Shown piece by piece: positions 50,479 through 56,685 of a stretch of 64,000 nt of DNA. The notes below the pieces were generated by a model, which ran no database searches, was not told where the DNA came from, and was given only the letters and a program-made list of their open reading frames with translations. How positions within the stretch are numbered: position 1 is the first letter of the stretch; each line of letters opens with the position of its first letter. The stretch is from Erysipelotrichaceae bacterium (GTDB taxonomy: Bacteria > Bacillota_I > Bacilli_A > Erysipelotrichales > Erysipelotrichaceae). Position numbers and translations under genes: made by a program. Location of the stretch: positions 1-64,000 of the forward strand of contig JAFRZA010000043.1 in assembly GCA_017442805.1 (NCBI GenBank), written 5' to 3'.

Positions 50479-52548
50479 TTACTTCACCGCCACCTTGTAT
50501 CGCGTGGTAAAGTCCGCGATGAACCGGTTGAGTTCCTCGGTCAGTTCCACCGACATCTTTTCGCCGGTGGCGATCTGCTGGACCAGATGCGGAGCTGAGG
50601 AATGGACTTCCATCAGCAGGTTCTTCTCATAGTCCCTGACCCTGTTGAGCGGCACGGTATCGACATAGCCGCGCTGGTTGGCAAACAGGGAAATGATCTG
50701 GTCTTCCTGGGCAAACGGCGAGTACTGCGGCTGCTTGAGCAGCTCGGTCAGATGCTGGCCGTGGTTGATGGTCCTTCTGGTTGACTGGTCCAGGTCGGAA
50801 CCGAACTGGGCGAAGTCGAGAACTTCCTGGTACTGAGCCAAATCGAGCTTCAGTGAGGAGGCAACCTTCTTCATGGCCTTGCTCTGGGCAGCGGAACCGA
50901 CACGGCTGACGCTTAAGCCGCTGTCCACGGCCGGGCGGACGCCGCTGTTGAACAGCTCGGTCTGTAAGAAGATCTGACCGTCGGTGATGGAAATGACGTT
51001 GGTCGGAATGTAGGCGGAAATGTCGCCGGCCAGGGTCTCGACGATCGGAAGGGCGGTCAGTGAACCGCCGCCGTTGCGCTCGGAAAGCCTGGCGCTTCTT
51101 TCCAGCAGGCGTGAATGGAGGTAGAAGACATCACCGGGATAAGCTTCTCTTCCCGGAGGTCTTCTTAATAACAGTGAAAGGGTACGGTAAGCCACGGCGT
51201 GCTTGCTGAGGTCGTCGTAGACGATCAGCACGTCTTCGCCGCGGTTCATCCAGTATTCGCCGATGGTGCAGCCGGTATAGGGAGCGACATACTGCAGGGA
51301 AGCCAGTTCGCTGGCTCCGGCCACCACGACGGTCGTATAGTTCATGGCGCCGTTCTGCTTGAGTTTCTCCACGATCTGGGCCACGGTCGAGTTCTTCTGT
51401 CCGATGGCCACGTAGATGCACTTAACGTTTTTGCCCTGCTGGTTGAGGATGGTGTCGACGGCGATGGCGGTCTTGCCGGTCTGGCGGTCGCCGATGATCA
51501 GCTCACGCTGACCCTTGCCGATGGGGACCATGGCGTCGATGATCTTGATGCCGGTCTGCAGCGGTTCGTTGACCGACTGGCGGTCAATGACGCCGGGAGC
51601 CGGCTTTTCGATGGGCATGTAAGCCGCGGCCTTAATGGAGCCCTTGCCGTCCAGCGGACGGCCGATGGCGTCCACGACCCGGCCCAGAAGGGCATCGCCG
51701 ACCGGCGTCTCAACGACTCTTCCGGTCGAGAAGACTTCCATGCCTTCCCTTACTTCGGCGGAATCGTCCAGAAGGACGGCGCCGACGCTTTCTTCCTCAA
51801 GGTTCATGACCATGGCGCTGCCTTCGCCGATGCGCAGCAGCTCTCCGGACATGGCCTTGTTGATTCCCTTAATGGTGACGATGCCGTCAGCTACGGTAGT
51901 GACGTAGCCGTTGGTATCGGCGGATTTGACGGAAACGTTCTGGCGGTCATAGGAATCGATCTGTTCCTTAATGACCTCATTCATTTCCCTGACTGAGGTT
52001 TCAGTGCGGTCCTCACGGGAAAGCAGTTCGTCCTTCAGTCCCCTGAGCCGGCTCTGGTAGGAGCCATCCCAGACATTGTTGCCCACGGTAACCTTGATGC
52101 CGCCCAGAAGTTCGCTTTCCACGCGGTTCTCCAATTTGACCTTCTGACCGATCTGCTCAGCGATGGTCTTCTCAATCATGACGATCTCCTTTTCGTTCAG
52201 CTTTCTGGCTGAATGAACGGTGCCGAAGATCATGCCCTTGAGCTGATAAGCGTATGTTAAAAAGTCGTGAATGAGCATCACTTCACTGTAGTTCTTATCC
52301 TTAAGTTCACCGATGGTGAAGAAGGCGTTCAGCACGTCATCATCAAGGGTGTTTCCAAAGTACTGCTGTAATCTCGCTTTTTTATCACTTACGCTATTGT
52401 CAGAAGATGTCAGAAATGAAGACAATTCGCTGTTTTGGTTAATCAGTCCGCTGACTTTCTCCAGCTCCGTCCGGTAAAGATCGACCTTACCTTCCTGCTT
52501 GGCCAGTTCCATCAGCAGGGTGGCATAACGCGTGTTGGTGGCACTCAT
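50479..52548 (-). CDS. atpHA: Fused ATP synthase delta-alpha subunit, 689 aa
   Basis: One open frame holds both F1 delta and alpha. Residues 1-178 are a delta (OSCP) chain: [18 protein letters not shown], then [18 protein letters not shown] and [10 protein letters not shown] at its normal end. Residues about 189-689 are a full alpha chain: [21 protein letters not shown], Walker [14 protein letters not shown] at 353-365, and the rest of the noncatalytic subunit. The linker is [12 protein letters not shown]. Inside the junction there is no good ribosome site before the candidate alpha ATG. Fusion should fix a delta to every alpha unless it is cleaved. The alternative is a sequencing frameshift. 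Confidence 0.9.
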
Positions 52549-54466: not shown

Positions 54467-54491
54467 CGGCGGCAGTTGGTTTCTGCCGCCG
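54467..54491 (-). terminator. Hairpin after the MsrA-DNPH1 gene
   Basis: CGGCGGCAG (54467-54475) pairs with CTGCCGCCG (54483-54491) directly after the stop codon at 54492. The following T-tract is weak. Confidence 0.65.
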
Positions 54492-55397
54492 TCATTTCAG
54501 AATCTCATCGATCTTTTCCAGCACTTCTTCCGGCTTTTCGTAGAAGAAGATCTGGAAATACGGATCCCCCGTCAGCATTGCCGACAGGTTGACATCCTTA
54601 CGGCAGAACAGATAACAGGGCAGTCCGATCTTTTCAGCATAGGCCAGTTCGTAGCCTACCCCCAGCGAAGGCGTGCTGCATTCGCCGATCAGCACATCAC
54701 TCTCTCTGAGCCAGGCGGTGTCCTGGTCATAGATGTCTCTGGCCGATGGCCTGACTTCCAGGTCAAGATTGCCGACGTGTTCGGTCAGAACGTCCGCCTT
54801 CTTCTGCATGTGAGCGATGATCTGCCGGTAGACTTCCGCGTCATTGCGGCCGCCTCTGATCGAGCCGGCAAAGTAGACTCGGGTACGATCCTTCTGTCTG
54901 TTCAGTTCTCTGATCTCTTCAAACTCGGCAAAGCTGACATGGCAGTAGCCGTTGGGGTTGTTGATCAGATAGTTCTGGTGATAGTCTTCGGCGTCATAGA
55001 AGCGTTCCAGCGGCTTGAGTTCCACATGGAATTCCGGATAATTCCGCTTCTTTTCCTCAAAGATCTTTCTCAGCAGCGGCAGATCAGATTCATTGTCGTA
55101 ATAGACGCCGGTCTGATACTGCGATCCGATGTCTTCCTTCTGGCGGTTGGCCTGCGTCGGGTCAATGCAGATGAAGAAAGCGTCGATGATCTTTCTCATC
55201 GAGATCTTCTTAGCCTCATATACCACCTTTACGGTCTCCCGGTAGCCGGTGGTGTCGGTGCACACTTCCTTATAGGTCGGATTGTCGGTATGACCGTTGG
55301 CATAGCCCACTTTCGTGGAGACAATGCCATCCAGCATCTGCATGGCTCTTTCCATGCCCCAGAAGCAGCCTCCGGCCAGATAAATCGTCTTTTCCAT
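54492..55397 (-). CDS. Peptide methionine sulfoxide reductase A fused to a DNPH1/Rcl-like nucleotide N-hydrolase, 301 aa
   Basis: Residues 1-165 are a complete MsrA: AGGCFWGMERA with catalytic Cys11, TGYRETV, QYQTGVYY and EDYHQNYL. Residues 172-300 are unrelated and read RVYFAGSIRGGRNDAEVYRQI, VLTEHVG, YDQDTAWLRESDVLIGECS and PSLGVGYELAYA, the order and spacing of 2'-deoxynucleoside 5'-monophosphate N-glycosidase (mammalian DNPH1/Rcl), with the catalytic Glu at 250 and Asp at 226. So one protein would repair oxidised methionine and hydrolyse (possibly damaged) dNMPs. Single open frame; GTG/ATG start at 55397 is the natural MsrA N-terminus. Confidence 0.9.
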   Translation of the reverse strand: MEKTIYLAGGCFWGMERAMQMLDGIVSTKVGYANGHTDNPTYKEVCTDTTGYRETVKVVYEAKKISMRKIIDAFFICIDPTQANRQKEDIGSQYQTGVYYDNESDLPLLRKIFEEKKRNYPEFHVELKPLERFYDAEDYHQNYLINNPNGYCHVSFAEFEEIRELNRQKDRTRVYFAGSIRGGRNDAEVYRQIIAHMQKKADVLTEHVGNLDLEVRPSARDIYDQDTAWLRESDVLIGECSTPSLGVGYELAYAEKIGLPCYLFCRKDVNLSAMLTGDPYFQIFFYEKPEEVLEKIDEILK

Positions 55398-55401
55398 GTC
55401 G

Positions 55402-56685
55402 TTATCTCCGCTCTGCCAGTTTCAGCAGTTCTTCTCTCTCGTTCGGGTAGCCTTCCAGCACCCGTTCCATGATCTCTTCCAGCTTGTCGCCGATCTCCCT
55501 GCCCTGATAGCCCAGCGCCAGCAGATCGTTGCCGTTGATCTGCAGGTCCGCTATCCTGACCGCTGCGTTTTCCGCGATGAGTTTTTCGACTTCTTCAGCC
55601 AGTTTGTCGCACTCTTCCGGATGACTGTATTCGGTATTCTGTGCCAGGCAGTCAGCCTTCTTCAGGACAATCAGATCAAGGGCGTATTCGCCCATCCGGC
55701 TTAACAGCCTTCTGGCCTTAGGCAGCTGGTCGTGATTTTCAATCAGCAGCAGAGCCGCCTTTGATGTTCTGTTGTCCATGCGCAGCCGCTCAAAGATCTT
55801 CTCCGCGATCTCCGCAGACACCACGGCATGACCGTAGAAATGGTCCTTTCCGTTTTCGTCCGTCGTCCTGACTACCGCCTTGCCGATGTCGTGAAACAGG
55901 GCGGCCCAGCGGACGTAGGGTTTGGCCGGCGAACCGGCGACGACCTTGACAGTATGATGCCACAGGTCATAAAGATGATATTTATGGTGCTGGGGAACAT
56001 CCTGCATCATGGCCAGTTCTGGCAGGAAGATTTCAAAGATCTCCTCGTATTCCAGCAGGTACGGCTCAATGTATTCGCTGCAGAGGATCTCGTTCATTTC
56101 CTTCAGGATGCGCTCCTGGGAAACGTAACGCAGATCTTCCTTTCTTTCAAACATTGCTTCCCGGGTCTTTTCCTCGATCGCAAAGCCGAAGCGGCTGGCG
56201 AAGCGGATCGCCCTCAGGATGCGCAGGGCATCTTCGCCGAAGCGCTCCCGCGGATCGCCGACAGTTCTGATGATGCCGTCCTGCAGGTCCTGCTGACCGC
56301 CGAAAAGATCGACCAGATCTTTACCGTTATAAGCCATCGCGTTGATGGTGAAGTCCCGCCGGCTCAGATCATCGCTGATGTTTCTGGAGAAACTCACCTC
56401 ATCGGGATGGCGGTGGTCGCTGTAAACGGTCTCCGTGCGGTAAGTGGTTACTTCAAAGCCCTCATGGTCAACGATCACCGTTACCGTGCCATGCTGCAGA
56501 CCGGTGTCGCTGTACCTCTCGAAGATCTCATGCATCTGTTCGGGAGTGGCGTTGGTGGTGATGTCATAGTCGTGAGGCTGCAGGCCTAAAAGGCTGTCGC
56601 GCACGCAGCCGCCGACGATATAGCCTTCAAAACCGGCGTCCGCCAGTTTCTGAAGGATGTAGCTTACCTTTTCGGGAATGTTCAT
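55402..56685 (-). CDS. CCA tRNA nucleotidyltransferase / poly(A)-polymerase family with HD domain, 427 aa
   Basis: Nucleotidyltransferase core: GYIVGGCVRDSLLG, HDYDITTNATPEQM (metal DxD), RRDFTINAMAYN and GEDALRILRAIRFASRFGF. After about residue 230 an HD domain follows (AALFHDIGKAVVR, then HAVVSAEIAEKIF). It adds or repairs tRNA CCA ends. tRNA genes in this window already encode CCA, so repair may be its main role. No ribosome site is visible before the ATG; a possible -10 lies 8 nt upstream, hinting at a leaderless mRNA. Confidence 0.93.
   Translation of the reverse strand: MNIPEKVSYILQKLADAGFEGYIVGGCVRDSLLGLQPHDYDITTNATPEQMHEIFERYSDTGLQHGTVTVIVDHEGFEVTTYRTETVYSDHRHPDEVSFSRNISDDLSRRDFTINAMAYNGKDLVDLFGGQQDLQDGIIRTVGDPRERFGEDALRILRAIRFASRFGFAIEEKTREAMFERKEDLRYVSQERILKEMNEILCSEYIEPYLLEYEEIFEIFLPELAMMQDVPQHHKYHLYDLWHHTVKVVAGSPAKPYVRWAALFHDIGKAVVRTTDENGKDHFYGHAVVSAEIAEKIFERLRMDNRTSKAALLLIENHDQLPKARRLLSRMGEYALDLIVLKKADCLAQNTEYSHPEECDKLAEEVEKLIAENAAVRIADLQINGNDLLALGYQGREIGDKLEEIMERVLEGYPNEREELLKLAERR

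Follow-up and report, generated by a model that had tools for sequence, protein, structure and literature searches.

A predicted fusion of methionine sulfoxide reductase A with a DNPH1-type nucleotide hydrolase in one genus of Erysipelotrichaceae

In a draft genome of an Erysipelotrichaceae bacterium (G000), a single open reading frame within the 64,000-nucleotide stretch analysed here (the window) joins a complete methionine sulfoxide reductase A (MsrA) to a C-terminal domain of the DNPH1/Rcl type, and the two domains are, judged from the sequence, most likely translated as a single chain. The product is probably a bifunctional damage-repair enzyme combining MsrA with a DNPH1-type hydrolase, for which a 5-modified dUMP would be the likeliest substrate. 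The residues of both halves predict catalytic competence with high confidence, and a preference for 5-hydroxymethyl-dUMP has an about even chance. That the join itself confers a benefit is somewhat doubtful, and the full proposition of one enzyme in which protein repair is physically coupled to cleansing of the nucleotide pool following oxidative stress, and whose DNPH1 domain truly prefers 5-hydroxymethyl-dUMP, is put forward as tentative and rather doubtful as a whole.

The coordinates of gene, domains and key residues are collected in Table 1. The frame consists of 301 codons, starts with ATG and is uninterrupted; with both domains matched by profile, the 301-residue MsrA-DNPH1 chain proposed in the initial annotation is confirmed, and the motifs then listed, GGCFWG (Cys11), EDYHQNYL, GSIRGGR (178-184), VLTEHV (203-208), DQDTAWLRESDV (224-235) and SLGVGYEL (244-251), were recovered exactly. 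In-frame ATG, GTG and TTG codons are absent from the domain junction (codons 151-176), which makes separate initiation of the second domain from an internal start codon unlikely. The linker shows the lowest conservation within the protein when the two fused orthologs of G000 and G003 are compared and is predicted in the structure model to be partly helical (156-167). Directly after the stop codon follows a hairpin with no T-tract immediately behind it, which was not called in a terminator scan. The product of the upstream gene is presumably a CCA tRNA nucleotidyltransferase (cca), and the order of cca-like gene, fused gene and downstream atp operon is common to G000 and G003.

Table 1. Features of the fused gene and its surroundings, with positions in the window
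Feature	Position	Strand	Basis
msrA-dnph1 fused gene, whole, 301 aa	54492..55397	-	ORF list; ortholog with 84% aa identity in G003
MsrA domain, residues 4-153	54939..55388	-	Pfam PMSR E=1.1e-56
Cys11, catalytic Cys of GGCFWG	55365..55367	-	invariant in 24 MsrA rows
Cys152 of NPNGYCH, likely resolving Cys	54942..54944	-	nearly invariant in 24 MsrA rows
Linker, residues 157-172	54882..54929	-	comparison of two fused orthologs and structure model
DNPH1/Rcl-type domain, residues 173-301	54495..54881	-	phmmer against PDB; Foldseek
Tyr175 = human Y24, catalytic triad; Phe17 in ribo-specific MilB	54873..54875	-	alignment; PMC10603095
LTEHV 204-208: E206 = E55 (water activation), H207 = H56 (base recognition)	54774..54788	-	alignment; PMC10603095
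Asp226 = human D80, general acid	54720..54722	-	alignment
Glu250 = human E104 / rat E93, nucleophile	54648..54650	-	alignment
LSAM 271-274 = human S128/M130 region, extension reaching the other subunit	54576..54587	-	alignment
Hairpin, GC-rich, 8 bp, GGCGGCAG...CTGCCGCC	54468..54490	-	read by eye
Upstream gene, 427 aa, cca-like	55402..56685	-	ORF list; end lies 4 bases before fused gene

The N-terminal half covers all 153 positions of the Pfam PMSR model and equally exceeds the curated cut-off of the NCBIfam msrA family (TIGR00401; residues 3-152, 183.6 bits versus 108.1), so that its designation as a complete MsrA holds. Features of MsrA membership, Cys11 in GCFWG and the FYDAEDYHQ motif at residues 133-141, are present, and among solved structures the closest match is to the MsrA of Neisseria PilB (3bqe, E=4.9e-51). 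The likely resolving role of Cys152 is assigned by analogy with two-Cys MsrA enzymes. A search for MsrB (PF01641), positive in 10 of 14 well-known control genomes, found none in G000-G006, G029 and G261; thus, the fused protein is the sole MsrA/MsrB-type enzyme found in its genome, and in MsrB-free genomes methionine-R-sulfoxide would have no repair unless by some other enzyme.

The C-terminal half matches Pfam Nuc_deoxyrib_tr over residues 174-269 (E=6.1e-12, 46.1 bits versus a gathering cut-off of 28.8). Searched with phmmer against PDB chains, it retrieves DNPH1 structures at E-values of 1e-19 to 5e-22, with rat Rcl (2khz) at 4.6e-22 and human DNPH1 at 7e-21, and aligns better to no other family, in agreement with the DNPH1 identity initially suggested; rat DNPH1 and the domain share 45% identity. 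AlphaFold2 modelled the fused chain with modest confidence (pLDDT 71.7, pTM 0.52), and Foldseek with this model retrieved MsrA structures (best 3bqf) and structures resembling the predicted second domain, namely DNPH1 (TM by target 0.69-0.80). MAFFT applied to mixed MsrA and DNPH1 halves wrongly placed the DNPH1 rows over the MsrA half; the structure prediction used another alignment.

Residues of recognized importance in DNPH1 (PMC10603095, PMC12751057, PMC3834327) were mapped in an alignment of 17 bacterial relatives and rat DNPH1. Kept are the equivalents of human Y24 (Y175), I29 (I180), R30 (R181), E55/H56 (E206/H207), I76 (I222), D80 (D226), S98 (S244), E104 (E250), S128 (S272) and M130 (M274), the last two by a rat-to-human shift of 11 set in the present analysis, and all mapped columns from Y24 to M130, as well as LSAM, are invariant in the 17 relatives and rat. 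The catalytic triad Tyr-Asp-Glu is intact (Y175, D226, E250), including the conserved Asp and Glu expected from the initial annotation, as are LTEHV (204-208) and the equivalent of the base-contacting R30 (R181). On the other hand, D73, the salt-bridge partner of R30 in human DNPH1, has no aligned Asp, its place being taken by A219; the nearby D221 might substitute in a region, 209-223, modelled with a pLDDT <50. The shielding loop is approximately five residues shorter than in human DNPH1.

For the fused protein, we infer the activities, the substrate, the dimer and the joint purpose as follows. Cys11 would attack methionine-S-sulfoxide and Cys152 would resolve the Cys11 intermediate, with thioredoxin recycling the MsrA half. 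In the DNPH1 half, Glu250 would attack C1' of a 2'-deoxynucleoside 5'-monophosphate with Asp226 as the acid in a double displacement, whereby His207 would hold the base and Glu206 activate water, with the free base and deoxyribose 5-phosphate as predicted products; 5-hydroxymethyl-dUMP or another 5-modified dUMP is probably the preferred substrate. Since the active form of DNPH1 is dimeric, two MsrA heads would be expected on each dimer of the fused protein; S272 and M274, in the region of the extension that reaches the other subunit, are kept in the fused domain, and in the rat enzyme Met119' is a contact from the other subunit (PMC3834327). The benefit would probably lie in the co-expression of two oxidative clean-up activities. 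One oxidative-damage protein repairing proteins and cleaning the nucleotide pool, the idea initially advanced, is plausible; the host bacteria are, however, probably anaerobes with only episodic oxidative damage, which counts against an oxidative reading.

A fused ortholog with 84% amino acid identity over residues 1-300 occupies the same chromosomal place in a second genome of the genus (G003), hence the fusion is not confined to the source assembly. Between the two, the Nei-Gojobori dN/dS amounts to 0.073 for the MsrA half and 0.108 for the DNPH1 half at a dS near 1, indicating purifying selection on both halves. A wider spread across related genomes, considered at the outset, was not found: the fusion is restricted to two genomes of one genus, that is G000 and G003 among its seven genomes, while the other five, three of them 80-88% complete, possess neither half. 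Queried with the C-terminal half, 44 of 273 genomes of the family gave a match, the same 44 among the 316 of the order, and only in G000 and G003 was it joined to MsrA. Judged by open-frame length, no further MsrA fusion occurred in even samples of the phylum (392 genomes), the class (395) and a Bacteroidales-centred order (393), and among the matches listed from about 1,900 genomes searched there was no other MsrA-DNPH1 fusion. A contig scan gave at least 80 loci with one half only at each, and among the matches listed from phages, plasmids and viral contigs no record spanned both halves. These scans are based on best matches or exact seed patterns, by which a distant independent fusion could be missed.

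Candidates for additional fusions were rejected. At loci such as L055, L069 and L095, with a match start at residues 139-157, the open reading frames encode DNPH1 only, and the long frames of G072, G083, G118 and G121 apparently represent upstream read-through ahead of a Met codon that is a plausible start in the customary position. Separately, frames of 447 and 471 amino acids in the wider samples represent joins other than to MsrA: an N-terminal DNPH1 domain followed by a PALP pyridoxal-phosphate enzyme (470 aa; L193 2187-3596, minus strand, G1036) and a DNPH1-type domain with a C-terminal stretch containing a Por secretion sorting domain (446 aa; L194 2476-3813, minus strand, G857), which could represent either a true fusion or a join caused by a frameshift.

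With respect to origin, separate maximum-likelihood trees place the fused pair in one clade with support of 100/100 for DNPH1 and 100/99 for MsrA. The MsrA half lies among MsrAs mostly from the same family, the DNPH1 half among DNPH1s of gut Bacillota and Bacteroidales. Genus g24, represented by G029, encodes a free MsrA, 64% identical to the MsrA half over 154 residues, and a free DNPH1 on different contigs, and looks like the nearest genus sampled as it shares a fusion of the ATP synthase delta and alpha subunits with the genus of G000. Because this sister genus has both genes free, a single recent fusion event within the genus is probably the simplest history; the five genomes without both halves would reflect either loss or a gain of the genes by the fused branch only.

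The strongest rival to a joint purpose is a neutral fusion, in which the two genes came to adjoin downstream of cca, a stop codon was lost and the harmless join of two active enzymes persisted without a shared purpose. We regard this as unlikely, even though the extremely narrow distribution, the free genes on different contigs in the sister genus and the short and fast-changing linker all speak for it. Both halves and their join have nevertheless been kept in two species at 84% amino acid identity and a dN/dS of about 0.1, which separate selection on each half would also explain. Free DNPH1 relatives are, furthermore, repeatedly located beside antioxidant or clean-up genes: in the family, a NUDIX gene is nearby at 13 loci, mostly divergent and adjacent, and in L120 and L124 the next gene downstream, on the same strand as DNPH1, encodes an AhpC/TSA peroxiredoxin. 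In g24 (L184 6029-8747, L181 6181-8120), a flavin-reductase gene precedes the free DNPH1 gene and a SRAP (HMCES/YedK-type) gene lies two to three genes further on. Such neighbourhoods provide indirect support for an association of bacterial DNPH1 with genes of oxidative or nucleotide clean-up, although those in related genomes partly reflect shared ancestry rather than independent cases.

Also unlikely, in our estimation, is a DNPH1 half with a role in the general degradation of dNMPs, or one that acts on modified nucleotides from phages or the diet instead of endogenous oxidation products. Human DNPH1 slowly accepts other dNMPs as well (PMC10483697), the phage superfamily enzyme DmtZ is specific for dAMP (PMC12884076) and one DNPH1 relative resides on a viral contig (L141). 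Against this, R181, E206 and H207 are kept, whose equivalents act on the hydroxymethyl-uracil nucleotide in human DNPH1, and PADLOC gave no match to an anti-phage family. Comparison of viral contigs with the DNPH1 alignment yielded no confirmed relative. As PHROGs, for its part, offered no more than an MsrA-type family without an assigned function and a weak match to a deoxyribosyltransferase, a role in phage defence was dropped from consideration.

Far less probable still is a C-terminal half that is a nucleoside 2-deoxyribosyltransferase or a MilB-type CMP/hmCMP N-glycosidase, as the Pfam family name and the annotation of one plasmid relative would have it. In the PDB search that retrieved DNPH1, MilB-type CMP hydrolases reached E=0.14 at best and no deoxyribosyltransferase was among the 18 matches up to E=10; equally, the 50 fold matches listed were MsrA or DNPH1 only. 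MilB possesses Phe (Phe17) at the Y24 position and Glu (Glu62) at the H56 position (PMC10603095), which, compared with Tyr175 and His207, assigns the fused domain to the DNPH1 type rather than to that of MilB; Tyr175, and His207 in place of the MilB Glu, point to a predicted specificity for deoxynucleotides and against CMP. That two separate genes were joined artificially during assembly or binning can practically be dismissed, since, although G000 is a fragmented draft of 47 contigs (94% complete, 4.5% contaminated), the G003 assembly contains the same fusion, at 84% identity, with matching flanking genes.

Compared with known systems, the fused domain shares with mammalian DNPH1/Rcl the equivalents of the catalytic Y/D/E, R30, E55/H56, S98 and S128 but forms only the C-terminal part of a longer chain. 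The free DNPH1-type proteins of rumen and gut bacteria, from Bacteroidales and from genera g51 and g24 of the same family, are about 50-68% identical and have the same invariant residues, but are encoded by stand-alone genes of about 135-160 amino acids without MsrA. MilB-type N-glycosidases share the superfamily and the dimeric fold, but differ in their ribonucleotide preference and in Glu62 replacing His56 (PMC10603095). On the MsrA side, joining to a partner domain is common, as in MSRAB, MSRBA and Trx-MSRAB (PMC6211008), and Neisseria PilB MsrA and the MsrAB fusions have the MsrA fold and motifs in common with the fused half; in the fusions described in that paper, however, the partner is MsrB or a thiol-relay domain and not a nucleotide hydrolase. 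A loose precedent is the ThyX-MSRB fusion of Thaumarchaeota (archaea), with a ThyX part devoid of the catalytic serine (PMC6211008), which ties an Msr domain to a domain of thymidylate/dUMP metabolism, but involves MsrB instead of MsrA and bears no relation to DNPH1. In the open-access literature searched, neither a description of an MsrA-DNPH1 fusion nor a characterised bacterial DNPH1 was found.

Gut bacteria possess close DNPH1 relatives with the human active-site residues mapped above. DNPH1 keeps hydroxymethyl-dUMP out of DNA and is a drug target in humans, where its loss potentiates PARP inhibitors. Its natural fusion to MsrA hints at a possible function of bacterial DNPH1 in the clean-up of oxidative damage, an idea directly testable with one small protein; if true, some bacteria would have a DNPH1-dependent hmdU defence resembling that of human cells.

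Two observations concern the surroundings of the atp operon. In non-fused genomes of the genus, a protein of approximately 394 amino acids with a weak, sub-threshold Card1-endonuclease match only is encoded between atpI and upp (L177 8107-9291, minus strand; same place in L178 and L179). In the window, the F1 ATP synthase subunits delta (AtpH/OSCP, 6-175) and alpha (AtpA, 186-684) are encoded in one 689-aa open reading frame (50479..52548, minus strand), for which a literature search retrieved no described counterpart. The same frame occurs in G001, G003, G004 and G005 and, outside the genus, in G029, with two genes in other members of the family; it would tie delta to every alpha subunit, or need processing.
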